Shown here piece by piece: positions 18,954-52,800 of a stretch of DNA of 64,000 nucleotides (within the stretch, counting starts at the first letter, position 1; the number at the start of each line of letters is the position of its first letter). Source of the DNA: Cyclina sinensis (Eukaryota; Mollusca; Bivalvia; Venerida; Veneridae). The notes below the pieces were generated by a model that made no database searches, was not told where the DNA came from, and saw only the letters and a list, made by a program, of their open reading frames with translations. Both the position numbers and the translations under genes were made by a program. Where the stretch lies: positions 20,849,453 to 20,913,452 of the forward strand of contig JAAONU010000006.1 of assembly GCA_012932295.1 (NCBI GenBank), given 5' to 3'.

Positions 18954-19257
18954 TTTGCCCTTTGGGTTACTGCGCATTCGTTAAAGGGGAAATTAACGTG
19001 ACAACATGTCTGTCATGACTGCCAGGAGTTATCTGATTTTTGTTAGCACTAGCATTCCTGAAAGTATGCTGGACTCTCTGAAAGTGTCATAGACAGTTTA
19101 AAATGAGTTGAAACATAAAATTCTTATGATCCACTTTTTCATGGCGAAGTCTCTTTGTTTACATCGGATAATAAACATAATGGTCGCTATTTAACCGAAA
19201 TGGACTTTTTAACGAAACTGTCATTTTATACGGAATGATTGCAAGTATAACATCGCT

Positions 19258-19749
19258 ATGGATAATAAAGAAAAGGAGAAGATTTTAGAGCAATATTATT
19301 TTAATGAGAAAAATACAGCTGAGTATGCCGGTAGCAAGAAACTGTTTGAAGTTCTGGATAAAAAGTATCCCGGATTATTTACGATTACTGGCATAAAACA
19401 ATGGCTTAATAATCAAAACGCTTACTCGCTTCAAAAGCCGAGAAGATATAGATTTAAGATGGCAAATGTAAGGGTGACGGCTATCATTGAGCAGCTGGAC
19501 ATAGATCTTTTGTCAGTGACCAATCTCGCTGAGGAGAATAACGGTGTACAATTTCTGCTTTGTGCTATAGATATTTTATTGAGGAAACTTTGGGTGAGAC
19601 CACTGAAAAACAAAACGGCAAAGGAAGTTTTGAGTGCTATGAAAGACATTCGCGCAAACATTTCTCCGAATAAAATACAGAGAGTTCGGGGAGAATGTAT
19701 TTTAAGGTTACTAAAACGTCGTTACGATTTATATTGCCTTTCCTTTTAA
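19258..19749 (+). pseudogene. truncated Polinton-type (retroviral-like) integrase
   Basis: The 163-codon ORF resembles the N-terminal half of the DDE integrase of Polintons, the family that includes the worm protein F54H12.3. Recognisable are the N-terminal helical region (residues 1-60), the motif GIKQWLNNQNAYSLQKPRRY, a likely first catalytic Asp in QLDIDLL, and the block AIDILLRKLWVRPL before KNKTAKEVL. Around residues 135-145, where the second catalytic Asp is expected, the sequence is degraded. The frame then runs into unrelated residues and stops. The third catalytic residue and the C-terminal DNA-binding part are absent, so it is not expected to be active. Confidence 0.8.
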
Positions 19750-19769
19750 AAAGGAAACGTTATTATCAA

Positions 19770-19922
19770 ATGAGTGAAAAGGTGTGAAAAGGAGTGAAAG
19801 AGGAGGCATGAGGAGTGAAGGAGGAGGCATGAGGGGTGAAAGAGGAGGCATGAGGAGTGAAAGATGAGACATGAGGAGCAAAAGAAGAGTGAAAGAGGAG
19901 ACAAGAGGAGAGAGAGAGATGA
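19770..19922. repeat. purine-rich tandem repeat
   Basis: Repeats of GTGAAAGAGGAGGCATGAGGA-like units (about 21-22 bp) with one strand almost all purine. It lies directly after the broken integrase and may mark the internal deletion junction. The ORF on the complementary strand is a shadow. Confidence 0.8.
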
Positions 19923-20234
19923 GCGTTAACATAATGACAGTTTTGTAGGTGAATAGGTTACGTCATGTATGTACAAAAACAGAGTGATATACTAGGGATA
20001 TAGAATAGATTCAACAAAGAAAAACAGTTTGATTGTTTTATTGATATCATACGTTTCCCATTAACATCCAATACTAATAATGTTTCTCTATTTTTTCACA
20101 TTTTAATGGCTTAGCATAAAAGCTACTGAAGTAAGATGAATTGTCATAATTGCCACATAAAACTCCTCCAACGCTTTATTTTGTAACAATCCGTGATTTT
20201 TTTATTTTTAAACGTGTATATAACTTAAGATCGT

Positions 20235-20435
20235 TCATATCAACAGTTTGCACTTAGGTGTCCATCTGTCTCGAGATAATGTTTTAAAAAACGGAGGCTG
20301 AAGCATTGCAATTGTTTTTCTCATTGCCTTTAAAAGTTTATTTCCCGAAGTACTCGCAGTCGTCTTACAGCAGCCGTAACTATCTGTTTCGGGTTTTACA
20401 CTATCAATCCGAGCCTTCTTCTTGTTCCATGACAT
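20235..20435 (-). CDS. short basic ORF, possibly the tail of the zinc-finger gene
   Basis: 66 codons beginning MSWNKKKARIDSVKPET. It lies just downstream (minus strand) of the zinc-finger ORF in a different frame. A third frame between the two is also open for about 30 codons and looks protein-like. Together these hint that one gene has suffered frameshifts. No recognised domain. Confidence 0.3.
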   Translation of the reverse strand: MSWNKKKARIDSVKPETDSYGCCKTTASTSGNKLLKAMRKTIAMLQPPFFKTLSRDRWTPKCKLLI

Positions 20436-20468
20436 CCTCTCTTTCCAGCTCTGGAATTTGGTAAGTGT

Positions 20469-21026
20469 CTAGGACCTTGTCAAAGAGAAACTTATGCCGT
20501 ATTTCAAAGTTTCGTCCTTGACATACCCATCCGTATCGATCAGCTGATTGACTGTCTTCTTTATAGATTTATAGATAGGATCTTTTTTCATTGCATCAAA
20601 CCACACCAATTTACTGCCGAAACTGTTCATCATTGCTTTCCTGTAGGTGCTTTTCATATTCCTGAAAACTTTTTCTTTGGCTTCAAGTTCACTAATGTCA
20701 TTATCTTCTCCCATAAGGTCATTTACCTTGGAGTAATACTGCGACTGACACTTTTGAAACGATTCATCTACAATGTGTCTCCAAGGATCGATCTCCATAG
20801 ACTCCTCTGAAGTGACAAATGTATCGTCACTGTCGTGACTGTGGCTAGACTCATTGTCATCTATGGGCCCAAAAATATCCTCTTTCACTGATACGTCTGA
20901 CATTGCGTCTTCATCTGAGTCTGTATCTGAATGTGCCAAGTTTTTATGTCGTAACATATTATCCTTTCTCCCAAAAGTCTTTAAACAAATGTCGCACCGA
21001 AACATCGTCTTCGCCGTGTTAAACAA
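20469..21026 (-). CDS. C2H2 zinc-finger protein of the Polinton-type element
   Basis: 185 codons. Near the N-terminus is one classical finger, FRCDICLKTFGRKDNMLRH with a second His four residues on (C-X2-C-X12-H-X4-H). It is followed by an acidic Ser/Asp-rich stretch (about 32-85) and a helical C-terminal region (about 90-175, FQKCQSQYYSKVNDLM). The last residues look out of frame relative to the adjoining open frame, so the 3' end may be frameshifted. It lies on the opposite strand to the integrase. Host-like zinc fingers are seen in some invertebrate Polintons; the role is unknown. Confidence 0.55.
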   Translation of the reverse strand: MFNTAKTMFRCDICLKTFGRKDNMLRHKNLAHSDTDSDEDAMSDVSVKEDIFGPIDDNESSHSHDSDDTFVTSEESMEIDPWRHIVDESFQKCQSQYYSKVNDLMGEDNDISELEAKEKVFRNMKSTYRKAMMNSFGSKLVWFDAMKKDPIYKSIKKTVNQLIDTDGYVKDETLKYGISFSLTRS

Positions 21027-21051
21027 GAATGAGGAGGAGTGAGGAAAGCAT

Positions 21052-21414
21052 TCAACTTAATACTTGTCCAGTAATTGCGATGTTGTCAAGTTCACCGGTG
21101 TTCTGTTTCGGTTTTCTTCCAGTAGATGGCGGGCCCTGTCTAGGTTTCTTACTCTTCTCGGTTTTATCGCCTATTTTTGAATTCTGACGTTTGCGTGTTG
21201 CACCGGTGGGTTGTATTTCTTTCTGGCCAATAATTGATACATCGTTAGGTTTAGCTTGACGTTCAAGCAAACTTTTATCTATAGCGGTTGTCTGCTCTGC
21301 CGGTAGAACCATTCTAATATAAATTTCAGACTGAGATCTCTGACCTCTATGAGACCTGATCCTCTTCATCTTCCTCTTACTTATCCTCGTAATGTCTTTA
21401 TCAAATAAGTCCAT
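21052..21414 (-). CDS. basic hypothetical protein next to the right terminus
   Basis: 120 codons, starting 85 bp inside the element's right end and reading inward. It is rich in K, R, Q and T, with basic runs SKRKMKRIRSHRGQRS and KTEKSKKPRQGPP. It lies 25 bp upstream of the zinc-finger ORF in the same direction, as expected for two genes sharing one promoter. I do not recognise a family. Confidence 0.5.
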   Translation of the reverse strand: MDLFDKDITRISKRKMKRIRSHRGQRSQSEIYIRMVLPAEQTTAIDKSLLERQAKPNDVSIIGQKEIQPTGATRKRQNSKIGDKTEKSKKPRQGPPSTGRKPKQNTGELDNIAITGQVLS

Positions 21415-21438
21415 GTTTCTAAATCACGTCTTGACTCT

Positions 21439-26415: not shown

Positions 26416-26676
26416 GTATGGGATTTATTACATTATTGCGACAGTAATTCAGCCAGTCAATACGTATAAAATAAAGTGATTCACTGTAATGAGGATTTTT
26501 TCCTAAAAAAGGAACAGAACTTCGTGTTTTACAAACTTACTTGATACAAAATCATGCGCGGCGGATTTCAAGGGTTTTATGTAGAATGTATTCTACAAAA
26601 TTATGCATCATCTTTTAGTGACATTAAATATATTTTCCTGTTGTCGCTTTCTTTATCTTTTTTATATATTTTTCAG

Positions 26677-27344
26677 AAAACGGTAATCAGTCAGTATATG
26701 TCCCGTCACAGAAATGTGGTGAAATCAGCAAGTCAGCATCCTGGAAACTCGCTTCACCGACTGGCTTCTTTTATCGTCACAGCTGGACTTTCAGAACATG
26801 TCGAACTACTTTCAATCCAGTTAAATTAGAATCCTGTCTCAGGAATACAAACTTAATTCTTATTGGTGATTCGACAACTAGGCAGATATTTTCAAAAATA
26901 GAACAGTTAGTTTCATGCAAATGGGTCACGGATAAATGGTCAACGAGCGGAAAACATAGACCAGCCACGTGTGTCAATTCTGCACTGAATTTCAGCCTCA
27001 CTTGGAAACTTCACCCGCTTCCGTTTTGCACACGGAATACGCCAAGACATTATTTTAAATCTTTCAGTGCCTACATTAATGAAATTGATGACCACAGCAA
27101 AACAGTATTTCTACTTCATATGTATGCACATGTGTTGAACCACCATTCTCACGTGTTTTACGAGACTTTGAAAAATATGAAACTTGGAATAACAGATCTT
27201 CTTAGCAGAAATAAAAACGCTCAAGTATTAATCAAAGGACCACATGCATACTCCTTTTCAAAATCAGAAGATCACGTGATCTGGATGCCGGATGCTTATG
27301 CAGACGTTTATCAAAAGTTTTTATACAATGAATTTAAAGACATT
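26677..27344 (+). CDS. NXPE exon 7, 5' part up to the insertion
   Basis: Acceptor TTTTTCAG. Carries the PC-esterase core: the IGDSTTRQ block, CKWVTDKWSTSGKHRP, the YINEIDDHSKTVFLLHMY strand, and ITDLLSRNKNAQVLIKGP. The open frame ends at GAC ATT, where the transposon begins. Confidence 0.85.
27338..27344. repeat. 7-bp target-site duplication, left (AGACATT)
   Basis: Identical to 34732-34738. Both copies belong to the coding sequence of NXPE exon 7. Confidence 0.9.
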
Positions 27345-27551
27345 GTAGCAACGCTATATGTCGCAACGCCGCTATATGTCGCAACTAACGCTAAATGTCG
27401 CAACGCTGACGCTATATGTCGCAATCAACGCTATATGTCGCAATCGCCTACCGCTAAATGTCGCAACGTTGCCGCTATATGTCGCACAAAAATCGATTGC
27501 CGCTAAATGTCGCAACCCCTTGACGCTAAATGTCGCACTTGGTAGGAAAGT
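27345..27551 (+). repeat. left terminal inverted repeat, nine 13-bp motifs
   Basis: Nine copies of CGCTA(T/A)ATGTCGC separated by spacers of about 2-20 bp. The fifth motif base alternates between T (five copies) and A (four). The array order is the same in the right terminus. Such sub-repeats are commonly transposase binding sites. Confidence 0.9.
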
Positions 27552-28084
27552 AACAGATGGAACTGAAACAAAAAGTAAGTGTTAAAACATTTAAAGTTTA
27601 TACCATTTACACATGAAAACATATCCTAGTAAGCAAACAAAAGTTGTATTTTGCGGTCTATGGCAAAAACCTTGTATGGCCATAGAAACGGTTTTTGATA
27701 AAAGGGATGGATTTGGTTCTCAACCACGGACCAGGTGTGAGATCAAACTTTCTCTTTGAGGATGTCTTTCTCACAAAATGCATCAACAAAAACATTTGGG
27801 TATACATGTATATTTGTTATATTATTTGACATAACTGAGCAAACCGCTTGTTAATGCTAAGGGGGAACTATATCTTAATATATATTTTATATTATACCTG
27901 TTCATAATCTGACTAGATAGGCTTTACTACATGTAAGTATTAAATAATACCCAATTGATCTGTTGATCGATATTCGTAACTATGCGGTGTATTGATTTAG
28001 GTTTATGACAGAATTGTTATACTTTCATAACTTTTTATATTTATCTCAATATTTCTTTGGGAACATTAATGAATCAATATACTA

Positions 28085-28186
28085 TGGAATTGCCAAATGT
28101 TGACTGCCTACTGCTTACTGTCAACTGCTTACTGTCAACTGCTTACGGCGTACTACTTATTATTCACTGCTTATAGCATTAAAATA
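28085..28186 (+). repeat. partial MITE copy (TGCTTACTG repeats)
   Basis: Matches the left part of the MITE at 28754-29070 (ATGGAATT.C, GTTGACTGC, TACTGCTTACTG, CACTGCTTATAGCATTAAAA). The translated repeats TAYCLLSTAYC are an artefact. Confidence 0.65.
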
Positions 28187-28189
28187 AAA

Positions 28190-28276
28190 ATGGACGACCT
28201 ATTACAACTATATTGGTCAAAAAATTATTCAGTTGCCGAAATAGTTGCCGGTCTGGAGGTCAAACACAATATAGTG
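28190..28276 (+). pseudogene. short helix-turn-helix-like fragment, 29 codons
   Basis: ATG at 28190 opens MDDLLQLYWSKNYSVAEIVA followed by a KHNI stretch, then runs straight into a SINE. The pattern (short acidic-hydrophobic helix, then SVAEIV and a recognition-like segment) resembles the N-terminal DNA-binding start of integrase- or transposase-like proteins abundant in bivalves. It is too short for a firm call and is clearly truncated. Confidence 0.3.
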
Positions 28277-28279
28277 CAG

Positions 28280-28440
28280 TGGTATATAGGCCACTTCCAA
28301 CAGCCTTGCTGTTGGGTAAGCCCTTTAGCGATGTGGTTGAGGTGTCCGCCTACGGACCAAGAGGTCTGTTGTTCAAACCCGGTTGGACCCTTGGTATTTT
28401 TCTGCCTCCTAATTTACTTTAATGGTGTCAGAAGTGTTTG
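28280..28440 (+). repeat. tRNA-derived SINE copy 1
   Basis: Starts TATATAGGCCACTTCCAACA. A-box-like TGTGGTTGAGGTGTCC and B-box-like GTTCAAACCCGG, then GGACCCTTGGTATT and a CTCCTAATTTACTTTAAT tail. Confidence 0.75.
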
Positions 28441-28524
28441 ACGGACTCATGCGGTAAGCAGGGAGTGTCATTCAGGAGAGCTGGCTAGCTCTGAAAAGAA
28501 GTAAAGAGGGGAGGAGTGTAGTGG

Positions 28525-28690
28525 TTGTAGGTATATAGGCCACTTCCATCAGCGTTGCTGTTAGATTAACCCCATTAACGACGTGGTTGAGGTGTCCGTC
28601 TACGGACCAAGAGGTCTGTGGTTCAAAACCCGGTTGGACCCTTGGTATTGTTCTGCCTCCTAATTTACTTTAATAGTTTACAGGTACATA
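28525..28690 (+). repeat. tRNA-derived SINE copy 2
   Basis: Same family as 28280-28440, about 10% different, same orientation, 245 bp downstream. A third, more distant relative lies at 32145-32280. Confidence 0.75.
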
Positions 28691-28753
28691 TATATTCTTA
28701 GAACAACATTTAAAGGAATTCGCTGATAAATTAATAAATGCATGGACTATAAC

Positions 28754-29070
28754 ATGGAATTCCATAAACGACAGCCAACTGTTGACTGCTTACTGTCTAC
28801 TTCTGACTAACTACTGCCTACTGTTAACTGCTTACGGCTTACTGCTTATTGTTCACTGCTTATAGCATTAAAAGTACCAAAACCTAAATAATTATGCGTG
28901 TCTGTGCAATAAATCGTTGTGTCTGTGCAATAAATCGTTGATAACTCGGTCGGAATCCTTTGGCTGATACATTGCAAATAAATACGCGCAACGCACGGTA
29001 GGCAGTAAGCAATAGTGTAAGCAGCGCGCAGTAAGCAGTCAACAGTTGGCTGTCGTTTATAGAATTCCAT
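28754..29070. mobile_element. 317-bp MITE nested in the 7.4 kb element
   Basis: The left end ATGGAATTCCATAAACGACA matches the reverse complement of the right end (TGTCGTTTATAGAATTCCAT) with one difference. The inverted arms extend about 45 bp through CAACTGTTGACTGCTTACTG. The target duplication is not clear. Confidence 0.7.
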
Positions 29071-29495
29071 AATATACTGTATTATAATCAAACATTTCCA
29101 ATCGATCTTCGTAATGCACAATCACTACACATGAAAACTTGGACGTAGCTTTGTTTTATCCAAAAATCTTTAAAAGGCCCTTTTGAATATAAATACATGT
29201 ATATATTTAACTCATTTGAACTTAAAATGATAACACACAAACTGCACTAAAACTCTAGTGCCATATCATGTTTTATGTAGTTTTACGGTTACACTAGTCG
29301 TTTATGAATATTATTGTTCACTTAATCATTACAGTATCAATTAGCATTATTTGATTTCAATATACTTGTTCTTGTTGGAAAATATGGATTAAAATGATTT
29401 GCACAAACTTGAGTTTATTTTTTTGATTTGACTTTGTAATCATGGTACCTTACCACATTATTAACTGTATAACAGTAACGTGTATTTTATTTCTT

Positions 29496-30362
29496 GCGGT
29501 ACCTTGTGCCGCCGCATTGCGGCCTTGCTGCATAAACTGGTTCAAAGTCGTTTATGCGGTGATTTTCTCCGCATTAAAGAAATACTTTTTATGCGGCACA
29601 AAGGTACCCTGTCACCGCATAAAAACAATTAAAATGTTTAAGACTTTTTTGTATTAGTGACGGGGTGTTTTTTGACGTTAAAAAATAAAATAAAAACCCA
29701 TTTATCTCCTGCTAAGGTTATGTAAATGTGCAACGTGTTTATGTGTCAATCAAAATTGAATCGGCGTATGACATATTTTTTTACCATTTATTGGACTGAC
29801 GGACATTTATGATCATTCGTAACGTCATTTTAAACATTTTTAAGAGATAATTGTTAATTATAGGCCATGCAAGTTTGCTCGGTTGTGTACTAAATTTTTA
29901 TTATGTCGTGAAATTGATTTCGCTAAATCGTGAAAATTTGCCGCCGCATTTGTCGGAACAGGCGCGCAGGTTTTAGAGGCATATCTAGGCATACCAGTAA
30001 CTCGATTTTGTAAATGAAAGAAAATTATAAAATAAGATTCTTTTACTTTAATGTGTTAGAACCGTTCTACGGTAGTCTACAATGGAATCCCTGTTTAAGG
30101 GATAAATTATTATCGAAAGTTGTTGAAATATTAATACTTTACTTTGTTTGGCTTGAAAATATATAAACTCAGGTTCAACCTCTTTATGTGGCAAAAAGGC
30201 ACTGTTGCGCCGCATAAAAGCAATTTTCGCTTTATGCATTGCGCCTAGCCGCATAAACGTGTTCACCACTATAATGCGAGGAAAATCACCGCATCAATGA
30301 CTTTGAACCCGTTTATGCGGCAGGGCTTCTATGCGGCGTCACAGTGCCTTTATTCGGCTGCG
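29496..30362. mobile_element. foldback element with GCCGCATAAA sub-repeats
   Basis: Inverted arms at 29496-29630 and about 30170-30362 share GGTTCAAAGTC, ATGCGGTGATTTTC and CGCATTA, and several copies of GCCGCATAAA/TTTATGCGGC. The centre is AT-rich. A further GCCGCCGCATT lies at about 29941. No coding capacity. Confidence 0.65.
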
Positions 30363-31714
30363 AAACATCCAAGTCTTATATGATTTTATATAACACACAT
30401 GATTTACTGCGGCACTACACGATTTATTTTGCGAGTTCCCAATAAAACCACAAGTAAATAAAAAATGTCTCGTACATAATTTTAACACTTTGGGGCACAT
30501 TTTAAATTTCTCGCATTGTTGCAAAACATTTTTATTTTTCATTTTTGTCAAATGAAAAGAAAGTATTTTCTCATGTCCGTAAACATCCAATGGACTGGAC
30601 GATTTCAGATTTTCATGTATAGGGGGTTATGGAAGGGGATATCCGCCAGTGTATGCATACTGCTGTATGACAATTGCATATTGCTTTGTTTAATTCGTTA
30701 TTGTAATCTGCATTTCCCCGTGCCTTTGAGTTTATTTCCTCTGCTTGTTGCAAATATCTTGCAGCTTTTGCAACTCGATGTATGTAAATCATACAATTTT
30801 TAATGTAAAAGGAAAGTGCATATTCGGTTGTTATTCGATTGTGTATAACCTTGAAATGTTGATGCTTATAAGTTCTTACTACTTTTGACGTGGTTCTTTG
30901 TGACTATATATGGTTTAATACACACATAAGCTTTTAAACATCTATTATTTGCTTTCGGTAATTTCGACGTTGAATGTTTGTTTCAGAAGACTTTTAAAGT
31001 ACACGATTCAGCCTGGACTCTATGTTTTGCACTCAGTTATGTGTAATGCTTATTAATGTATTAAAACAAATTTTCATATTCACTTAAAGATAGCAGTTAG
31101 CACAAAGCAATAGCAAACATGAAACTAACCGAATGCATCTGTAACATGTATTCATATAACGCTGGGAACCATTTTTTTCGGCAGTTTCCGTAAAAAGGTT
31201 AATCATGAACGGTGTATTGACTAAAAAATACCAGGCAAACTAGTGCAATCCAAGACGGGCAATACAACAATTGCTTTTTCAGAAGTTTATTTCGTTGAGA
31301 AATTTGCACTTTCCTCCCGACATAAGTACTCCAGGCACCTACATTTTCACTGACCGACTTTCCGTCGTCATCACGTACGTTAGTAAACTCGTAACAATAA
31401 TTTTCTCTTTTTGTATTCTATAAAACTAAAAGTAGCAAGAGCATAAGCTGACCAATGCAAATAATCTGTCAGCTACATTAATCATAAATTTGGCTTTCTG
31501 TATTTATTTCATCAATAAAAAAGTAACAAGGTAAGAGTTGGCCATTTCAAAAAGTCACTGAGGTACAAGTTGACCATATTAAGTACAAGCTGAAAACTTT
31601 GTTATTCATTTTTTTTGCATGCTATAAAGGCACGTTCCCAGTTGAAAAAAAATCGCACTTTTTCCAAATTTTGATAAATAATTTCTCAAGAATATATATA
31701 ATGCTACAATTTTC

Positions 31715-31812
31715 AGTATATTAGACTGTGCAGCCCACCAGGACTCAAACTCCATACACTTGGAACACTGTTCCGCTGATCTACTGTCTGAGCTACCCAG
31801 CCTCATACAGGT
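31715..31812 (-). repeat. tRNA-like SINE head, minus strand
   Basis: On the minus strand, A-box-like GGGTAGCTCAGACAGTAGATC (21 bases, 31785-31805 region) and B-box-like GAGTTTGAGTCCTGG. The cloverleaf is incomplete. Confidence 0.5.
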
Positions 31813-32144
31813 TATCTTCCCTCTTAAGGAACAGTTCTGAACAGTTCTACACACTTAAGCATTTTTGATAAAATCACTCATTTTAATGTTCACTCAAAAA
31901 CAAAGCTTAATCATAAAACATACAAAATGACATTTAAAACATTTTCATGACATTTATTTTCCAATTAGCTGAAAAAATACTAGAAAATGACAAAGACTCC
32001 TGTTTTTATAAATTCATCTCAGAGTTAAGTCATTCAACCAGTTCCGATTGACATTTTGACTACTCAAATGGTGTCTTAAACTTATAGACATATTTATCTA
32101 CAATCAGTGTCTCTTTTACATGTTTTAAAGACCCTGCTACAATG

Positions 32145-32280
32145 TAGTGGTTTAGGCCACTTCCAACAACCTTGTTGTTGCCAACAGTGTTGGGGCTTCA
32201 TGAAAGCGGTTGGGGTTCAATTCCCGTGAGAACCCTTAGGTTTATTTTGTCTACTTATGTACTTCAACAATACTCTCAGT
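32145..32280 (+). repeat. SINE relative of the 28280 family
   Basis: GGCCACTTCCAACAACCTTG, then GGGGTTCAATTCCCGTGAG as a B box, then a CTTAGGTTTATTTTG tail. The A-box half is degraded. Confidence 0.5.
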
Positions 32281-34014
32281 CATATAGACGCTATGCATAA
32301 TTTATATTTTCTTTATATTTGTCCTTCATTCCGTTAAGAAAGGGTGATTTGCCCAGAAAAATGGAAAAGTTTTCTCAAACCAAATCGGTCCACAGACCAC
32401 ATTGTTTTAATATAATCCTATTATACATTTATATAGTATTTTCATAGATGTTTAAAAATGATGTGAGACGTGGCCTGTGTCCGTGAATCTGTTAAGCAAG
32501 CTATAATATAAACAAATAACCAGATTTCTACCTTTAATCTTCATTATTTGACCCACTTTTCCGAGAATTTCAATTGACAATATAAATTATAAATGACCTC
32601 AAGTCAAAACTTGTACTTATGTGTAGATGGGAGAATTTTACCACTGAAAAAGAAACATTTACTTATTCACTTATTTCGCCATTATTTAGCATTTCATCCA
32701 AAATACACGACGGGCAAGTAATTACTATTTCACCGTAAAACCACGGAAAACGCCGAAGGTCAAATTTGTTCTTCTACAGTTATCTCCCGTGTATAAGAAT
32801 TTGCGCTAGAATCTTAAATTCTTTACTGGTTCCCTACGAAGTTTACATTAACATGATGCTTTTAACAACCGATTGACGATTATACTAAGTTTATGCATCA
32901 TGTTTAAATACCTCTTTTTCTGAAGTTTAAACATATTTTTCTATCGTTCATGTTGTTAATGATTACCTTCTGGAATATTAAATTTAAACAACAGCCATGT
33001 GGCAGCAAACAAGAATGATGTTGAATAAAAAGCCGATACATTCAAATTAAGAAACATTAAAGACTTAAGTAGTTGTTAACTACATGTCACATTCAATAGC
33101 AACAAAGTCAAATGAATTTACAAATACATAGTTTTCAGTCTATAATTTTACAGATAAACATTTCAAGATCACAACGGTACAAGAAATGTTAAACCACGGA
33201 CTCTAAATGTGCAAATAAGAGTTATTTGAATATGGGAATGAATTGTAACAATAGCAATAGGAAACACGAAAAACAAATTACTTATAAATAGAATATATGC
33301 AACTTTATTGAAGTTGTCAATAAGTAGGACGCATATGAAAGTAAATTACATAAAATTGTAATTTAGCAGTAGACATACAGTGGCGGATATCCCCTTCCAT
33401 AGGGGTAGGTAATCGAGACTAAATATCATGGAACTAGACAATAAAGCTCAGGAAATGATGACGCATAGAATCTTGTTACCTGACCTGTCTGGATCTAAAG
33501 GGGCACTGTTTTGTATTGGACAAACACGCAAAATGTGTTACATTCTCATAATACAAAATGTATATCTGAAACTATCCATCAAATTTTTTTGCCTTAAAAC
33601 TAGAAAACAAGTTCGTTACGAAGAAATGTATATTTTTTATATTTAACGCATTAAAGTTTTTGATCAGACCCGTTACAATCAAATAAACCGTGTGATAAGG
33701 AAATATTTTACTATTATAATTATACTATAGTAACGATTCCCCTTTAACCCAGTAAAATGTTAAGATCAGATTGTAATTTATAACTTCGTGGTGTAACATA
33801 GTAAATACATTTTTTTGTTTTTTACATGCTGTTAAGCAATTTGGTAAAACTCAACAGCTGCCTTTTAAATAACAGTTTTTCATGCCTTTCCATCAAACAA
33901 TTGTTTCGCAGCCATTTTACGCTTGTATAATTATATATATTATATTAAAGTATCACGTTTCTGTTATACCTAGTTGATGTTATTGTGACGTGTGTGCTTT
34001 TCATTGGTCAGAAA

Positions 34015-34345
34015 ACTGTTTGTGGTGCTAAGGACAATGTTTCAAATAGACCGACGGTGCGGAATGCCTGGGTTACATACAAGTTGTTTGAAATTTGTTC
34101 AAATTCGCATAATAAATGATAAAGTTATGGAGCGGACAAGAATTTGACCTTCAAGTGTGACCTTGACCTTGACACGGTAGGGACCTTGATGCTGCATGGG
34201 ACACAATATCTAATGCCGGTGAACATTTGTGTGAAGTTTGATCAAATTAGCATAATAAATGAAAAAGTTATGGAGCGGACTCGAATTTAACCTTTGACCT
34301 TCAAGTGTCCCGCTACCAACTATTTTGATGTTTGTTGTCCGTTCC
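34015..34345. repeat. dispersed repeat with internal duplication
   Basis: CATAATAAATGATAAAGTTATGG and GAGCGGAC..GAATTT.ACCTT occur twice about 150 bp apart, with phrases such as GTGACCTTGACCTTGAC. This is a common style of mollusc dispersed repeat. Confidence 0.6.
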
Positions 34346-34524
34346 ACTGTATTAAATAGTAATAAGACACATCACGCAGTAACGATATGAATTCACGCGG
34401 CTTATATTTAATTTCATTTTGTTACCGATATAACCTCTGTTAATGCGATATATGTATTTGTGAAAGGTAGTTTTGTTACAAATATAAATGGAAACCAATC
34501 GGTCAATGTGCCTGATCTGATTTG

Positions 34525-34731
34525 ACTTTTCCACCAAGTGCGACATTTAGCGTCAAGGGGTTGCGACATTTAGCGGCAATCGATTTTTGTGCGACATATA
34601 GCGGCAACGTTGCGACATTTAGCGGTAGGCGATTGCGACATATAGCGTTGATTGCGACATATAGCGTCAGCGTTGCGACATTTAGCGTTAGTTGCGACAT
34701 ATAGCGGCGTTGCGACATATAGCGTTGCTAC
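34525..34731 (-). repeat. right terminal inverted repeat of the 7.4 kb element
   Basis: Reverse complement of 27345-27551. The only differences I see are near the inner edge (GGTAGGAAAGT versus GGTGGAAAAGT). Confidence 0.9.
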
Positions 34732-34738
34732 AGACATT
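34732..34738. repeat. 7-bp target-site duplication, right (AGACATT)
   Basis: Identical to 27338-27344. Confidence 0.9.
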
Positions 34739-34870
34739 AATGACAGAGTTGTGTACCTTGACAGTATGGATATGACGGTAGGAACAGAACAATGGCATAT
34801 ACATGCAGAAGACTATATAATTCAGGCGGTGGTAGAGAACATGTTTGATCGGGTTTGCAATTTGCAATGA
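34739..34870 (+). CDS. NXPE exon 7, 3' part cut off by the insertion
   Basis: 43 codons plus stop TGA at 34868-34870, in frame with the 5' part when the insertion is ignored. Encodes NDRVVYLDSMDM, WHIHAEDYIIQAVV and a terminal FDRVCNLQ, matching the C-terminal PC-esterase block that carries the Asp/His residues. Confidence 0.85.
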   Translation, partial: NDRVVYLDSMDMTVGTEQWHIHAEDYIIQAVVENMFDRVCNLQ

Positions 34871-38948: not shown

Positions 38949-40801
38949 TATGGTGGCTGATTTGTGCCATTCGTGTTTTCGCCCCGCGACCCCACCAAGC
39001 GAAAAGTCGAGAATTAAAAAGTTAAAATGGCGGGGGCGCGGAGCAAAAACACGCTAATTAGCGGGGGCGCGGGGCGAAAAGTCGAAATTTAATTGTTAAA
39101 CCGCGGGGCCGCGAAGCGAAATATTTATTGTTATAGGGCGCTAATTAGCGTGCTGTTGTTCGCGCCCCCGCCAAATTATACTTTAAAAACTCGACTTTTC
39201 GCTCCGCGCCCCCGCAAATTAGCGTGTTTTCGCCCCGCGCCCCCGCCGTTTTATTTCTTAAATCTCGCTGCGCGACCCCGCGGGGCGAAGTTTAATTTCT
39301 TAAATCTCGCTCCGCGACCCCGCGGGGCGAAGTTTTATTTCTTAAATTTCGCTCCGCGCCCCCGCTAATTAGCGTGTTTTCGCCCCGCGCCCCCGCCGTT
39401 TTATTTCTTAAATCTCGCTGCGCGACCCCGCAGGGCGAAGTTTAATTTCTTAAATCTCGCTCCGCGACCCCGCGGGGCGAAGTTTTATTTCTTAAATCTC
39501 GCCCCGCGCCCCCGCCGTGTTATTTCTTAAATCTCGCTGCGCGACCCCGCGGGGCGAAGTTTAATTTCTTAAATCTCGCTCCGCGACCCCGCGGGGCGAA
39601 GTTTTATTTCTTAAATCTCGCCCCGCGCCCCCGCTAATTAGCGTGTTGTTCTAACTATTGCCATGAACATGTTCATATACTAAGTGAAATTATATATATG
39701 TACATAATTATGCAAATAGAACAATTTTCAAACATCGAAGAATATGTTAAATATGTACTGCAAATATTTGTGCATAATATATGTAATCACAAAAATATAT
39801 GCATTCATTTCTTATTGTAAAATTTGACTTAAACTTTATAGAAAATAAATTTCTAATTACCTCCCTTTATTTACATGAAATGTAAAATTCGGTAATATCT
39901 TTATAAATAATACTTTTTGGAACCTACAATATTGATAAATCCTTATTTGAGCATCATATTTATGATTTAAAACCGTAAATAAAAAATTGTGTTAAAGGAT
40001 CTTTAAAGCTATAATTGTTAAAATTAGTTCTCACTTGGCTAAAAATTCCTCATAATTGAGGAATTATAGGTTTATATGATTAAATTATTTTGAAATAAGA
40101 CAATCTTATTAATTTAAACTGATATTATTTAAAATATGTAAATTCACTAAAAAACAAACTGCGCATGCCCTACAAAAAACCGGAAGACGAAAATTAAGAA
40201 AAAAACTTCTCGCCGCGGGGTCGCGGGACGAGATTTAAGAAATAAAACGGCGCGGGCGCGGGGCGAAAACACGCTAATTAGCGGGGGCGCGGGGCGAGAT
40301 TTAAGAAATAAAAGTTCGCCCCGCGGGGGCGCCGAGCGAGATTTAAGAAATAAAACGGCGGGGACGCGGAGCGAAAACACGCTTATTATCGGGGGCGCCA
40401 AACGAGGTTAAATAAATGTATAAAACGGCGGGGGCGCGGAGCGAAAACACGCTAATTAGCGGGGGCGCGGGGCGAAAACACGAGATTTTAACTACAGAAA
40501 CGGCGGGGGCGCGGGGCGAAAACACGCTAATTTGCGGGGGCGCGGAGCGAAAAGTCGAGTTTTTTAAGAATAATTTGGCGGGGGCGCGAACAACAGCACG
40601 CTAATTAGCGCCCTATAACAATAAATATTTCGCTTCGCGACCCCGCCGTTTTACAATTAAATCTCGACTTTTCGCCCCGCGCCCCCGCTAATTAGCGTGT
40701 TTTCGCTCCGCGCCCCCGCCATTTTAACTTGTTAATTCTCGACTTTTCGCTTGGCGGGGTCGCGGGGCGAAAACGCGAAATGGCACAAATCAGCCACCAT
40801 A
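38949..40801. mobile_element. 1.85 kb GC-rich foldback element with 6-bp TSD
   Basis: The ends TATGGTGGCTGATTTGTGCC and its inverse are flanked by AAACTC on both sides (38943-38948 and 40802-40807). The inverted arms are long (about 38949-39650 and 40190-40801). Each is built of GGGGGCGCGGGGCGAAAA, GCTAATTAGC and TTATTTCTTAAATCTCGC modules. The centre (39651-40189) is AT-rich. The arms are far more GC- and CpG-rich than the rest of the window. ORFs through the arms are repeat artefacts. Confidence 0.88.
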
Positions 40802-43835: not shown

Positions 43836-46800
43836 GTGAGTAAAAATGTTATATTTATACATGCTTCTTAAACTAATGGGATCCTAATTTTCTTATATAA
43901 TATTTATCATCTGATAGTTGACTTACTCTTTAACTTGTTCTCTGTTTAGGTCAGAATCGGATACCACTCAAAATGGAAAACTGTCACCAAGAAAGCATTA
44001 TTCTCCAAATGGAACTCACTTTACCTATGAAAAGGCCAAGCTTAAAGCTCTGTCACAAAGAAAGGCTGCTCTGTTGAAAAGACAAAGCCTGAATGGTAGT
44101 TTCGCCAATGCTGGTCAAAAACTCAAAATTCGAAAAAGGAAAATAGCAGAAGATGGGTACTTAGAGCACCGTCCCAAAAGAAAACGTATGTACCATTTAG
44201 AAGGTGCAAGTAAGTCTGATGTTTATGATGCCCGTGAAATAATTACTGCCAAGCGTGCAGAAAGGCTTGAAAATGAGAAAACTGCAGTTACTAAAGATAA
44301 GCTTGAAAATCAGGAAGAAAATGGAGAGAAGCAGAGAAACCGCGAGAAATTGAAAATAAATTGTATGAACAGACTCGGTACAGTTCCAAGTAAGTTAGAA
44401 AGTCATCTTAGTATGTATGATAATTCGGCAAGTATAGACACTTCCTCTGTGAAAATGGTAGATCAAAACCTCAACCATATAACAGAAAGTATTACTAGAG
44501 AAAACTTAAAGGAACTCTATTCCAAAAAAGTACAGGAGGTTAATCATACTAGCCCATTTAAGGGCAAAATGAGTGCTTTCGAAATTTCTGTTTTAAAAGG
44601 AAAGCAAAATCTGGAAAGGAGAAAAAGTATTGAATCTTCTACACTGAGGTCTTCTCCAAGGATGAATGCCAATGTGCCTAAACCAGATTACTGTGAAAAG
44701 AAGCGAAAAAAAAGTAGGCTGTCTTTAGCATCATCTCTGGATGGAGACTTGGAACAGTTTAAGAACTCTTTGGGGCGAAAAGTAAGGAAGAATCACAAAA
44801 GGACAAGGACAGTTGATGGGACTGGTAACTTATCACCCAGCTCATTGGAGAACAGTATTGTTGCTGGAATACCAAAGAGGAGAAAAACCAGAGAGAGTGT
44901 TACTGGCAAGTCAAATATGAGAGCACCAGCTTTAGACGTAAGAGACAAACCTATCAGTTTCAGGTGAGTTGTCCTGTAAATACCCTTGCTTAGGACACTC
45001 AAACTTTGGCTTAGATAGATCAACCGTGATTAAGGTTACAGTTAAGAACTTACTTTAGATTACTGAAGTCTAACATTGAATGTTGGAATGCTCAAATCCA
45101 AGAGAAGTGTTGTTGTAAGAAGTAGGTAGTCCTTCTTCATTAAAAAAATGTGTTCTTAACCTTTTTATCAGAGTTGATGAAACTTAGCAGGAATGGCCCT
45201 TGCATGAAGTTCAAAGAATTCCATTTTATGCAAAATCCTGGTTATTATGGATAGAAGAATGAAAAACTAATAGATTCCCTGTCAGCAGGCAAGGAGTTTT
45301 TTTAATAAAGTGCACAGGTCTTGTTGACCTCTATGAAGTTTGCTCAGAGTATGTCCCTTGTTAGCTCCACCTTCTGAAGAAAAATGTGGAGCTATTGGCA
45401 TGACCCGTTGGTTAACCCTTTTGTTTAGGCCCATTTTCTCAGAAACTATCAAAGCTATTTACTTCTAATTTAGAATACTTGTTCACTGTCAAAACGTAAC
45501 ATCATTTCTAAAGGGCAGATAACCCTCAAATTTATTTTTGCAAAGTTATGCCCCTTTCTCAACTATGAATTTCTTGGTTAACCTTATTGTTAATGTCCAT
45601 TTCTCAAAAGGTGTCAAAGAAATTTCCTTCAAACTTGGAGTGCTTGATCACCAGCAAGACCCTAAAAAGATTGTTGGTACCCATGTACCTTGGGTCAAAA
45701 TTAGCCCCATCCAAGTCCCGAAATATTTTTTCATTATTTTTTTTAGCTCACCATTAGCACAAAGATTCTGATTGGTCTTTGTCCGTCCTATGTCCGTCCG
45801 TCGTCAACTTTTCATTCGAACGACATCTCTGAAACCACTGGGCCAAATTAAATGAAACTAACCTGGGATGTTCCTTGCATCAAGCTCTACCAAGATTGTT
45901 CAAATGGTTCTGGTCCATTGCATTTCTGGTTCACTGGAGCTAAAAATAGATTTAAAAGGTTGGATCTTTAAAAAGAAATCTTCTCCGAAACCACAAGGCC
46001 TGGAGCTTTGATATTTGGTATGAAGCATCATCTAGTGGACCTCTACCAAGTTGGTTCAAATTATGACCTTGGGGTCAAAACTGACCCCACCCCATATGAC
46101 AGTTGATTTTACATAGATTTTTATAGGGGAAAAACTTAAAAATCTTGTCAGAAACCACAAGGCCTAGAGTTTAGACATAACGTGTGCAGCATTGTCCAGT
46201 GGACCTTTACCAAGTTTGTTCAAATCATGGCTACTGGGTCAAAAATGGCCCAGCCCCAGGGGTCACATGTTTTACATGGAGTTATATAGGTAAATCTTTA
46301 AAAAATCTTCTTGTCAGAAACTGCAAGACCTAGAGTGTAGATATTTGGTGTGTAGCATTGTCAAGTGGATTTCTACTAAGTTTGTTCAAATCATAGCCAC
46401 TGGGTCAAAGTAGGCCCTGCCCCGGGGGTCACTTGTTTACATGTACATAGAGTTATATAGGAAAACGTTTAAAAGTCTTCACATCAGAAACCAAAAGGCA
46501 TAGAGCTTAGATATTTTGTATGTAGCATTGTCTAGTGGACCTCTACCAAGATTGTTCAAATAATGACCCCTGGGTCAACAAATGGCCCCACCCCACAGGT
46601 CACATGTTTTACATAGAGTTATTTAGGAAAAACTTTTGAAAAATCTTCTTGTCAGAAACTGCAAGGCCTAGAGTTTAGATATTTAGTGTGTAGCATTGTC
46701 TAGTGGACCTCTACTAAGTTTTTGTCACATCAAAGCTTTTTGATCAAAATAGGACCTGCCCCGGGGGTAAGAAACCAAAAGGCGTACAGCTTAGATATTT

Positions 46801-49800
46801 TGTGTGTTGCATTGTCAAGAGGACCTCTACCTTTTGTTCAAATCATGACCCTGGGGTCAAAACTGGCCTCACCCGGGGTGGTCATTTGATTTGTATTTCT
46901 ATACACAAATACTTATATATAATAGGGATAACTTAAAAAACTTCGCTGCACTGAAACACCAAGGGCTAGACTTTCATTTGTTTGTTGTTATATCCCCTCA
47001 CCTTTTCCATTCAATAACAGGAGTACCATTTCACCCAAAGCCTTCAAACTTCATAGAATGATTGCTTTTACTAAATAGAAGAACCATATTGTTTTTGGGG
47101 TTATTAGGTCAAGGTCACAGGGTCCTAGTCACTAGTGAAAAGTGTTTCTGCACAGTAACTGCAAGTTCACAGGAACCTGTAGAGTAAAACTATTTCTGCT
47201 CAAAAATTTGAGTACCATTACACCCAGAGTCTTCAAACTTACTGCAAACTTATTCAAACTTGTGAACAGCAAACACCCATCACAAACAATAACGATAAAA
47301 GAACATCTTGCATAAATAACCCACATCCACCTCCTAGCCTAGAACTCCACTATTTACTTACATGGGATGGGTCGGTACCCCCTCCCATCATGTGCCATCA
47401 TCTCCCCACATACTTGACTCACCCCCACCCCCAACACCCACTCAGATTTTTTTAACTTGGGCCTCTTGTTTGACTTAGCTTATAATTTTTTATCCAGCAC
47501 TGAGAAAAGTGGAGCATACTGGACAGGTCTTGTGTTACTTTTGGCCCCATCCAAGCATTAACTAGCAATATATATTGGAAAATACAAGGCCTAGTGTTCT
47601 AAAATTTTGCACTTAGGGAATGATGTATTACCTACTTATGCAGGTTGAATGGATCTCCAAAGCTAAAGAGTCTACCCACACGACTTTCACTTGACAGTTT
47701 ATCAGGGACCACAGATCACCATCAGGGAGCTTTTCACAAACAGATAACAACCAATAGAATCTCAGGTATGAAACTGATTTCAGTACTGTTAGTGTAGGTT
47801 TATTGTAAATTCTATGCATCACTCAATAATATGTCAATATGTCACAGACTTTGAGAAAATTTTATCAGATCAAACATTTTTGGTTTCATTGATATATGGT
47901 CATGAATCTCTTTGTATTAATCAAGTACATGTATCAATAAATAAAAAAAAATCATCTGTTTTTACCCTGTCTGATGAAGTATTCTTCAAATATATTTTTC
48001 AGGTACCCTTGTTCACTTTGAAATATGTATTGCCAGATTTTCTTTGAATGAATTCTTCAGTAATTTGTGATTAAGAAAAAACTTGATTTAAGATAATAAA
48101 AAATAATTCTAGTTTAACAAGATGGGAAATTCTGTTAAAAGACAGCATAACTAATGATGTTAGTCTAAAATTTTAGTTAAATCATGGCTTCTTATTCAGA
48201 TACTGATCTTTTGATAATTATGCCAAAAACTGTATTTATTATTTTTATCAATGGCTAACAGTCTTCTTCAAAAAACACTGTTTTTCAGGAAAATATTGCA
48301 CCATTACAGTTAAAAAGTTATGAATTATATACCTCTAAAACAATATTTACAGGTACATATTTACAGGTACACCTCCAGTTAAAAAGTTATGAATTATATA
48401 CCTCTAAAACAATATTTACAGGTACACCTCCAGTTAAAAAGTTATGAATTATATACCTCCAAAACAATATTTACAGGTACACCTCCAGTTAAAAAGTTAT
48501 GAATTATATACCTCCAAAACAATATTTACAGGTACACCTCCAGTTAAAAAGTTATGAATTATATACCTCCAAAACAATATTTACAGGTACACCTCCAGTT
48601 AAAAAGTTATGAATTATATACCGCCAAAACAATATTTACAGGTACACCTCCAGTTAAAAAGTTATGAATTATATCTAAAACAATATTTACAGGTACACCT
48701 CCAGTTAAAAAGTTATGAATTATATACCTCTAAAAAATATTTACAGGTACACCTCCAGCATTGTATTCAGCATCTTTCATGTTTACCGATGTCACATCTT
48801 CATCATTCTTAAGCAAGCCACTTGAACGTCCAAATACACTCCCGGTGGAGAAATGTGCTAGTCCAATGAAATGTGAGACCGCAACTGACAACATTTGTTA
48901 CACTAGAGCTACTGAGACAGCAAAGACGAAGAATGAACAGTTGAGTAAAATTAGAAGAAAAAAGAGTCTTGAGGAGACAGTGAACATGTTACGTCGGAAC
49001 ACAAGTACAAGGTCTCGGGACTTCAATCTTGGAAAACCGTCTCAAGCTTGTTCAGAAAGCCGTGCATCTCGGCGATCATCAAGATCCACCACGCCCAACA
49101 TGTCGCCTGTCAAGACTGAAATCCCTTCTCAAAATATTACACCATGTTCTTCGCCAGGTAAATCTCCATGTACTACACCAAGTGGTACACCAAAGTCGAG
49201 GAAACACCAGAAGAAGAAAAAATATCTGTTTTCACGAAATGATGAGGTGTTAGCTAGATGGCATGATGGACTATACTATCTAGGGAAGATACTAAAGGTA
49301 TTGATGTAATTTGACTCTAGATTCTTGAATAGCATCATTAACAAAATGACTTACGGTATGAGTGTGTGTCTATGGTAAAGTCCCAAGCCTGTTATTGGAT
49401 CACTGAAAATGTCATGAAATCGCTCGAGGACCATTCCAGTAAAATATTTATCCCAACCCAGGAAAGCAAAATCAAGAAATTCTGTTTGCCAGGAGTGTGA
49501 TGGCCTGTTTAAAAGAATGGGTCTTTTCTTGGTAGTTGGTCTATTTGAAAGTGCCTTTCTGGGGTGGGATATATGTTGTACTGGTATGGCCCTTTGTATG
49601 TTTTCCTTTTCTTAGAAGAAGAAAAGTATTTCTGTTCTTTAGCCCCGCCTGTTGAAGATAGTTTAGAGCACTATAATCAGTTGTTGTACATCTTGGATTG
49701 GGGTGTTTGAAACTTGTCCCAGTATGACCACAGTTATGGCCCTTTAAATAGTGAAAATGGGCATTTAAAAAAAGTCTAAGATTTAAGTTCAGTGCCCTCA

Positions 49801-52800
49801 CTTGTTCAGCAGCGGGAAATGATTTGCTTTTGTCTGTGACACTGTCTCTCTGACAAAGGCACAAGGAGGGGTGTCCTGTGCGCATGTTTCTAGTTTGAAA
49901 CCTGAAACAGTGTTCTGGCTCTGCCAAGTTCCTGCCAGATGGAGTTGCCAAAGGGCTTGACCACCTGATCTGGACCTCAAACACATGAATGTTACTTTGT
50001 CTTGCATATGTATGGGAATAATTTTATAGCAAAAAAAAACTTTTCATTGTTCTGTTTTCTTCAGTATCACCACATTGATCTTTACGACATATTACTGATA
50101 TCATCATAATGTCAGACTGACTGTATCCAATGTGTTTCTAACATGGGTGATGATGCTATAAAGACGGATCATGTATTCAAGAATAATTCATTCAAACTGG
50201 TATTCCATTACAAAATTAATGGATTCTTTATTAATATTTCAGATAGATGAAAGATCCCATAAATGCCTGCTTAGATATGAAGATAACTCAGAATACTGGT
50301 CCTTGTTTAAGGATATTCACAGAGGTAGGAATGAGTGCATAGGTTTCATTTTAACACCCTGATTCACTTTTCACATGGATAAGTGTTTGAAATAACTGTA
50401 TTTCATATAATATCGTAGTTGTAGTTTTTCAGATATTGATTTTTGATTACTTATATTTCAAAATATTGACTATTGACTTTTCCATCTTTTGATGAGGAAT
50501 GCAAAGAGTTTGGTGAAAATGAAATTCCTTATTACAGCTTCAAAACATATTCACTGTAACCCCTTGAAATATTCTTCAGAGAACTGAAAGCTCTTAGGTA
50601 AAACCCATATTATAATAGAAGATTTATAGTTATTTGAGATCTTTTTTAAACAGAAATTACCTCTAAAATCTTAAGTTCAATAGAATTAGTCAGTTTTCAC
50701 ATATTGTATTTCCTCATGTATATTTCAGTACTGAAGGAGGAAGAGATGACATGCTGTGTGTGTTTGAGTGGCGTATCCGAACCACCCAATGAGATTGTCC
50801 TCTGTGAATACTGTCTTCAAGGTAAACATACAACGTGTCTTAAAACATAACTACTGTAAACAAATGAAGTTTTATCAAATATAATTACTATAAACATACA
50901 ATGTTTTACAAGACATAATTACTGTAAACAACTTGTGTATAACAAAACAAAATCATCGAAAGTGAACTATGTGTTACATGATGTAAATTACTCTATTTAC
51001 CATGTGTTCCTGGACACAAAGTGAACAAACTTTGTGTTACACTAAAAGATTACTTTAAACATACTGTGTGTTACCAGACAAATTTGCTACAGTACAGTTC
51101 TGCGATATGTACACATTTTGTGCTTCCTCCGCGATCGTGGTCAGTGCGAATTCTGAAAATCACGGAGTTTCTCCTTGAAAAAACCCGCTCAGAATCTCCG
51201 CGATTAAAGTTCACGCACAATCTCCGCGATTCTCCGAGTGTTAGAGCGTTTCCGCGGAGATTCATCACCAGAGTTTTAACAAACTATTTCCTATTTAACG
51301 GTGAAAAAAAAAAATTATTAAATTTATACACTTGAAATCCTTTCATCAAAAACAGTCAGCAATGTGTGATGAAATTACCATAACGTAACTGTACATTTTA
51401 CACCTGTCAATTATGTGACTACGGTATAATTCAGTCAAATACATTTATTTATGTGATTTTTTAAACGCTTGTTATTATTTAGTAAATCGATTAATACTTT
51501 TTTGCTAAGCGCCGAGACGATACAGATGCAGTTTAACACGTGTTGTTCGGAAATCGGTCAACTCATTTTCTGAAAATAAGATCAGCTTTTTCTGACGCAA
51601 CTGCATTGAATTGTCATTCTTTTCGTAAACAAATAGGAACGTTCGTACACAAATGCATCAGAATAAGAGCGCATTTGTTTGTATTTTCACTTTTTAAATT
51701 AGATATATTTATTTTCGCAGTTTGATTATCATTAGTAATTTATTTGCGCGGCACCGATTTAAGATTTAAAAATAAATAAATTGCAGCAATTAAAGTTGAC
51801 ATGATGTCAGGTAGGTGTGAAAATCTATTCATTATTGGCTGTCTTTCTTTTCTACCCTCGTTTCACGCATTCGGTATTAATGTTCGATTCTAAGGAAACA
51901 AAACCTTCTGTTCAGTCAACAAAGCCATCATTGCCTAAATTTAAAAATATCCACATATCTGTTAAAGATATTAATTATCTTAATAAGAAAATGTAATCAC
52001 GGGAAAAGCATGCTACATGATTGTAATTCCAGCTTTAAAGAGCATGTGGTGTCTGAAGCTTTTAAAGTGAGGTGAATATCATTTTCGGAAAATAACTGTC
52101 GCTCAGTGTTAAAGGTCAAAAGTTATATTCAGGAACCAATTAGGGGTTGAGACGCATTGTATCATGCGTGTACAGAACATAGGTCATGAGATCAACACAT
52201 GGTCTTGTGTCTGTCAATAAATTAATGTGTCAAAACATGTGACGAAACGAAATATTACTATTAGGCATCCTAAAACATGAAGATAAAAAGAGTAAGTAAA
52301 TATAAAATTTCACTTGTCATATATACACTTCAGTCAACTGAATGCATAAACAAATCGCGGAGATCCGCGGAGGATTGATAATCTGCAATTTCACAGCAAA
52401 TACCGTCACTAACCAGACAAAATTCGTCTCCGCGACGCCTCCGCAATTTAGGGCGTTTCTCAGAGATTCTCCGCGATTTTCCTCCCAAGGTCCGCGGAGT
52501 TTAAGAGAAAAATGTACATATCGCGGTAGCTGTACTGTAGATACTTACCATGTGCCTTAAGACATAATTTTTATATTAAATTTACTGTTTACTATAATCT
52601 TATTTCAAACTACCAAACATAAATATCTTGACTTTAATTTTATTTTTAGATTTTTTGTGATTAAGCATTTTTACTAGGTTTGGTTACTATCCACAAATGC
52701 TCATACATTACATCACATATCTATTTTTATTTTGAGAGTTAAAAGTTTTTGAGGCAAAATTTAGAATCAAAGGAAAGAATATTGTGCCATATTACCTAAC

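Follow-up and report, generated by a model that had tools for sequence, protein, structure and literature searches.

In a 64,000-nucleotide stretch of the genome of the bivalve Cyclina sinensis (contig JAAONU010000006.1, positions 20,849,453 to 20,913,452; hereafter the window), an exon of an NXPE gene is split by a 7389-bp non-autonomous DNA transposon. We consider it very probable that this focal element belongs to a recently amplified cut-and-paste family, whose longer copies, carrying an integrase and an OTU domain, would mobilise the shorter ones in trans, and that its present form goes back to a 6-kb deletion, a nested insertion and the movement of the resulting composite.

The copy was delimited by detection of terminal inverted repeats (TIRs), alignment and comparison of copies, and runs from TGTAGC to GCTACA (27344..34732, no strand assigned). 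Its ends are inverted repeats of 208 nt each, the left one at 27344-27551 (forward strand) and the right one at 34525-34732 (reverse strand). When the pair is aligned, the outer 199 bp are identical and the only two mismatches fall at positions 200 and 202 of 207. Each TIR contains nine copies of CGCTAWATGTCGC. Across the nine left-end copies of the 14-bp motif CGCTAWATGTCGCA, the A/T position is the sole variable base, and the spacers between them are 4-14 bp long and differ freely in sequence (start-to-start spacing 18, 19, 21, 19, 23, 21, 28 and 23). The 18 motif matches in the window compare with 0.93 expected from shuffled sequence, and outside the two TIRs the window contains none, even with two mismatches allowed. 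An earlier first-pass annotation, made from the sequence alone, had described termini identical over at least their outer 197 bp with nine ordered motif copies each, and both observations hold.

The 5-bp target-site duplication GACAT directly adjoins both ends (left copy 27339..27343, right copy 34733..34737, both forward strand). At the focal site alone, this reading is indistinguishable from the 7-bp duplication AGACATT of the first-pass annotation, because a T precedes GTAGC and an A follows GCTAC. A scan of the window for TIRs plus duplications, blind to the first finding, returned TGTAG...CTACA with GACAT. Among 18 complete copies in the same genome, the focal one included, the left end reads TGTAGC in all 18, and the right end GCTACA in 17 and GCTACG in one. 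Duplications are 5 bp long in 11 of these copies, among them the focal one, and 6 bp long in seven (10 and seven for the 17 non-focal copies). The terminal T and A belong to the element, the focal duplication is GACAT and AGACATT is a coincidence; with the T present at 18/18 left ends and the A at 17/18 right ends, we rejected a single 7-bp reading.

A few copies, including the focal one, can be read with 7 or 8 bp owing to a flanking T or A. An element of the P, hAT, MuDR, Dada or Kyakuja type with a 7-bp duplication would suit AGACATT at the focal site alone; L066 also allows the longer reading, as do three copies with 8 bp, and Galileo, a member of the P superfamily, is reported in the parts of its descriptions available to us to have internally repetitive TIRs and 7-bp duplications (PMC4168063, PMC3573991). 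All 18 copies, however, are compatible with 5 or 6 bp and T/A ends (one right end G) and most are unfit for 7 or 8; the transposase of the family is of the integrase type, and Dada and the described Kyakuja families are without TIRs. In our view the copies refute such an assignment, which is almost certainly wrong. Galileo resembles the focal family by function, having tandem repeats inside long TIRs that were proposed as secondary transposase sites (PMC3573991), but differs in transposase class and, as far as the available text goes, in its 7-bp duplications with the consensus GTANTAC (PMC4168063, PMC3573991). Against the 7-8 bp of Galileo-type P elements, the focal family has 5 or 6 bp once the T and A are assigned to the element.

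The TIR was used as a query against the window's own genome (902,855,857 bases, 154 contigs), yielding 200 candidates; 40 were scored and all 40 were 99-100% identical over 207 bp. Twenty stretches were fetched by TIR identity, and the 17 with both ends were counted as complete copies, 14 of them 4.1-5.7 kb and three 7.1-8.6 kb long. By eye, none of their open reading frames (ORFs) of at least 110 aa resembled an integrase, although not every ORF was profile-scanned. The focal interior (27552..34524, no strand assigned) contains 18 stop-to-stop ORFs of at least 60 aa, none of which matches a Pfam family above the cut-off, so that the earlier statement that the copy lacks a transposase stands for ORFs of this size.

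Three of the 20 fetched stretches contain long frames on one strand. The copy L063/L067, at 44648360-44660265 on contig C7, has both TIRs, a length of 11.9 kb, TACAT flanks and an 895-codon open frame, while L048/L036 on C14 has both TIRs, 11.46 kb and GACAC flanks, with its frame split over three reading frames; read from the flanks, both duplications are 5 bp. L061 on C10 is open over 693 codons and shows eight motifs at its left in L068, with no exact outer 28-mer. The 895-residue product (P0014) matches the rve integrase core in Pfam (2.1e-9) and contains an OTU cysteine protease domain (6.6e-8); both domains are also found in the L061 frame. The predicted catalytic residues D186, D249 and E284 are present, with 34 residues between the last two (DD34E), as are the Cys and His boxes of the OTU domain. 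The best NCBIfam model for this frame is IS481 (1.8e-27, 96.6 bits), followed by IS3 (1.4e-9) and IS21 (1.8e-6), and the L048 core piece gave IS481 (6.6e-27), IS30 (1.7e-9) and IS3 (5.2e-9). Foamy virus integrases were the best PDB match (5.2e-12). Within the 895 residues, no match to the H2C2, GPY/F or YPYY patterns was found, and Pfam matches up to E 0.1 included no zinc finger; a finger may still be encoded by an upstream exon outside this frame. The first-pass annotation had expected a mobilising factor supplied in trans and had proposed a genome-wide search with the terminus for a copy with an ORF; this search turned up the three integrase-bearing copies, and in their gene a candidate for that factor within the same genome. 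As a separate observation, the C-terminal part of the L063:1090-3774 frame consists of tandem short acidic and histidine-asparagine repeats encoded by a minisatellite.

The relationship between long and short copies was traced through the 4660-bp copy L049, which aligns with L061 to the left and right of a single junction (1915|1916). L061 has about 6.0 kb of extra sequence here, including the transposase frame, and L063 has 6.2 kb; L048 matches L049 on the right side. In the focal element the junction where integrase-bearing copies hold some 6 kb of additional central sequence was placed by eye at approximately 29220..29221 (no strand assigned). Each of the remaining copies in the comparison covers 91-100% of L049. 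The short copies therefore look like the product of one founding internal deletion that was then multiplied.

The focal copy consists of an element of the 4.6 kb type plus a nested element of 2774 bp (30628..33401, no strand assigned), which reads TATGG...CCATA, has perfect 21-bp TIRs and is flanked by GGGGT on either side; the interior outside the nested element is common to the 4.6 kb copies. Of the other 17 complete copies, this insert is shared only by L050 (contig C7). Over the whole length, nested element included, it is 99.26% identical to the focal copy, whereas the other 16 copies cover just 56-62% of it. As L050 carries the same insert at this identity, the composite has moved in one piece on at least one occasion since the nested element was inserted. 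The GGGGT flanks are possibly a 6-bp IS3EU duplication minus one G.

Among 14 of the 18 elements (L052, L054, L058 and L059 were left out), pairwise substitution divergence averages 1.2% for the interior and 0.5% for the TIR, and the focal copy differs from its nearest sibling L050 by 0.48%. This low divergence supports a recent burst of the family, among copies chosen by TIR identity, and together with the intact flanking exon it indicates that the focal insertion is probably recent. The first-pass annotation had reached the same conclusion partly from the identity of the two termini. That argument fails, because the TIR is near-identical in 48/48 distinct ends counted and therefore cannot date the focal insertion; in this count alignments shorter than 190 bp were left out, and picking copies by TIR identity inflates TIR conservation. 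At positions 201 and 203, close to where the TIR ends on its inner side, 20 and 21 of the 48 ends depart from the query, a pattern consistent with a left/right difference spared by gene conversion.

Two further observations concern single members of the family. In the 8.6 kb copy L058, an ORF at L058:5482-7030 includes a MULE transposase domain (1e-6). The extra block of this copy, about 4 kb long, maps to positions 1845-1853 of the focal element; the alignments on its two sides have 9 bp in common there, as expected of a Mutator-type duplication. L052 and L054 share extra sequence that is absent from the other copies compared, possibly a second composite lineage.

The host exon lies on the forward strand, with the open frame at 26628..27343 before the insertion (26628 being the start of the frame only) and at 34738..34870, to the stop codon, after it. 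The first part covers positions 1-182 of 220 of the NXPE4_C profile (PF24536). Without the insert and one duplication, the exon matches profile positions 14-220 (E 2.9e-40). Eleven homologues of the rejoined exon were found, the best being 70-71% identical, and the seven that were aligned (P0008 and P0011-P0013 were left out) read uninterrupted across the insertion site, which confirms that the element splits an otherwise open exon, as had been annotated from the window. Read into the element, the NXPE frame continues for 53 further residues and then stops; therefore the final portion of the domain would be missing from the predicted protein. An assembly error as the source of the interruption is very unlikely, because other copies have the same termini and duplications of their own. 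A search of viral contigs with the joined exon found no relative.

The sequence between the exon parts has GT...AG at its borders, which could suggest that the element acts as a new, introner-like intron and that the NXPE gene stays functional. Splicing exactly at these borders would retain 5 surplus nucleotides and shift the frame into an early stop codon. On this ground, we rejected removal of the insert as an intron at these GT..AG borders and regard a functional, spliced gene as very improbable.

Several points weigh against the reading of a trans-mobilised family whose termini are recognised through their motif arrays. First, we infer the action of the transposase, a product predicted from DNA, on the ends of the family. 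Secondly, its IS481 score of 96.6 lies below the curated cut-off of 224, although this is the best model in the library; NCBIfam comprises prokaryotic families only, and no eukaryotic Ginger model or Ginger control protein was scored, so the match does not rank IS481 above Ginger. Thirdly, over TIR columns 1-192 of the 48 distinct ends, motif sites show 16 substitutions in 5946 and spacer sites 14 in 3255. This difference in conservation is not significant (p 0.25), which leaves the binding-site role of the motifs unproven, and helical phasing of the motif starts was not clear (p 0.11).

Judged by those parts of the published descriptions that were available, the family is best filed as an integrase-class DNA transposon of the Ginger / IS481-like kind, a putative new variant with no single family assigned. 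Broad-sense Ginger elements are described with TIRs of 40-270 bp, TG..CA ends and 4-6 bp duplications, and the focal family fits in TIR length, ends and duplications (PMC10741241).

For Ginger1 in the strict sense, the accessible text gives 4-bp CCGG/CCGT duplications, an H2C2 finger, GPY/F and YPYY motifs and a length of 2.6-7 kb (Bao et al. 2010, PMC2836005). A Ginger1 with relaxed duplication would account for a Gypsy-integrase-like transposase with a C-terminal OTU domain (Ginger1 has OTU or Ulp1, and an Aplysia Ginger1 with OTU is listed), for the TGTAG left end in 18/18 copies, which agrees with TGTNR, for the long TIRs, 208 bp being within the 40-270 bp range, and for non-autonomous relatives with the same ends (PMC2836005). 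In contrast to that description, duplications are 5 or 6 bp in the 18 copies and none is CCGG or CCGT, the H2C2, GPY/F and YPYY patterns are missing from the 895-residue frame, and the long copies reach 11.5-11.9 kb. We regard membership of strict-sense Ginger1 as rather unlikely. Ginger2/TDD shares the TGTNR termini, long TIRs and, in TDD-4/5, 5-bp duplications; its DDE core is without GPY/F and YPYY, and OTU is unmentioned in the portion at hand (PMC2836005). It differs from the focal family by its H2C2 finger and by duplications of 4-5 bp, those of animal Ginger2 being 4 bp, compared with 6 bp in 7/18 copies here (PMC2836005).

The IS481 family, whose model is the best NCBIfam match of the transposase core albeit below the curated cut-off, is also similar in the absence of an HHCC motif, in TG..CA ends and in the 6-bp duplications of most of its members, according to the sections available (PMC10045372). 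Its eukaryotic counterpart IS481EU is described there from parabasalids, with TIRs mostly below 50 bp and duplications of about 4, 15 or 25 bp, and these sections do not mention OTU (Kojima and Bao 2023, PMC10045372); the focal family differs in its 208-bp TIRs, 5/6-bp duplications, OTU domain and bivalve host.

A further candidate is the IS3EU/GingerRoot lineage, of which the family could be a TG..CA-ended branch with an OTU domain. The same partial source describes these elements without an HHCC motif and with 6-bp duplications, notes TG..CA termini occasionally in GingerRoot and suspects animal relatives (PMC10045372), and the window itself holds elements with IS3EU-type termini. The termini are given as mostly TA..TA, and for IS3EU as always TA..TA, and 5-bp duplications are not described in the text available (PMC10045372). 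The focal family has TG..CA ends and 5- as well as 6-bp duplications. The 5-bp length accounts for 11/18 copies, and the IS3 model (1.4e-9) ranks far below IS481 (1.8e-27). This lineage is a possible home for the family, though a doubtful one. Polinton/Maverick elements have AG..CT termini and 6-bp duplications, in contrast to the TGTAGC termini and the 5-bp duplications in 11/18 copies of the focal family. We only tentatively entertain the idea of a separate, IS481-derived animal superfamily that arose independently of IS481EU and Ginger1/2 and would be marked by a zinc-finger-free integrase with OTU, termini with a nine-site array and 5/6-bp staggers.

Traces of the termini elsewhere are few. 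The exact TIR motif strings had no match in the literature searched, and two-motif patterns were found neither in viral contigs nor, in their strict form, in GTDB genomes. A relaxed two-motif pattern gave eight GTDB loci (rough unaided expectation about 2), which we rejected as bacterial transposon ends and consider chance or unrelated. By eye, L002, L003 and L005-L008 appear to be a longer unit repeated locally. No longer array accompanies L003, which has a Mutator-family transposase (PF00872) nearby, or L004, which is close to a resolvase. L001 is located upstream of a DUF4143 ATPase gene, and its motif is absent in the eight plasmid homologues fetched of 506 matching records. Also by eye, L001, L009 and L011 show short direct repeats just upstream of some bacterial DUF4143 ATPase genes, possibly operator sites, whose sequences vary from host to host.

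As a protein query, the reverse frame of the TIR found nothing, while the forward frame retrieved P0001 (714-bp contig) and P0002 (JGI, 937-bp contig). The sequences of both predicted peptides encode the same TIR and inner flank, and hence the family is present in at least one other public assembly. For the transposase, tblastn returned five weak core matches each from phage and plasmid records, the annotated ones being integrase or transposase in phages and IS3 or IS481 in plasmids; a search of viral contigs found no relative.

Elsewhere in the window, positions 38949-40801 hold a foldback-like element, 1853 bp long, whose arms are GC-rich repeat arrays and which has TATGG...CCATA ends and a perfect 6-bp duplication, AAACTC. 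Such ends with a 6-bp duplication are the signature reported for IS3EU, and the nested element at 30628-33401 has the same type of ends. An ORF at 19213-19749 resembles an integrase N-terminus by eye, with no Pfam match up to E 0.01 and no IS481 match. It is followed by opposite-strand ORFs, one with a weak C2H2 finger, and by its general resemblance the region 19213-21423 is possibly what is left of a large mobile element. At 43918-60691, what look like exons of a Polycomb-like gene show weak Tudor_2 and Mtf2_C matches below the cut-off, and a C1q-domain ORF (PF00386, 9.3e-19) is found at 10823-11365.

Based on the comparison of copies, the following course of events is proposed. The long members, with 11.5 and 11.9 kb for the pair of copies measured, encode a DD34E transposase with an IS481/Ginger-like core and a C-terminal OTU domain. 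Supplied in trans, this candidate enzyme most likely acts on the 208-bp TIRs, perhaps with the nine motif copies serving as an ordered array of binding sites; it would cut at TGTAGC/GCTACA and join the ends to the target with a stagger of 5 or 6 bp. A single internal deletion of about 6 kb, which took out the transposase gene, may be the origin of the common 4.6 kb copies. One of these copies would have gained the nested 2.8 kb element, and the composite would then have moved, the NXPE exon being among its destinations, with duplication of GACAT and truncation of the open frame. We infer the role of the motif array as well as the direction and order of these events from the sequences compared.

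For a large non-autonomous element that would otherwise stay anonymous, the analysis names a likely class of mobilising enzyme. One long copy whose transposase frame is open and a 4.6 kb derivative form a natural pair, which offers test material for integrase-type DNA transposition in animals. The mixture of 5- and 6-bp duplications bears on how integrase-like transposases set the stagger, and movement of the composite with its nested 2.8 kb insert shows that additional cargo is tolerated in the interior. For the host, the insertion is a candidate for a recent loss of function in an NXPE gene.

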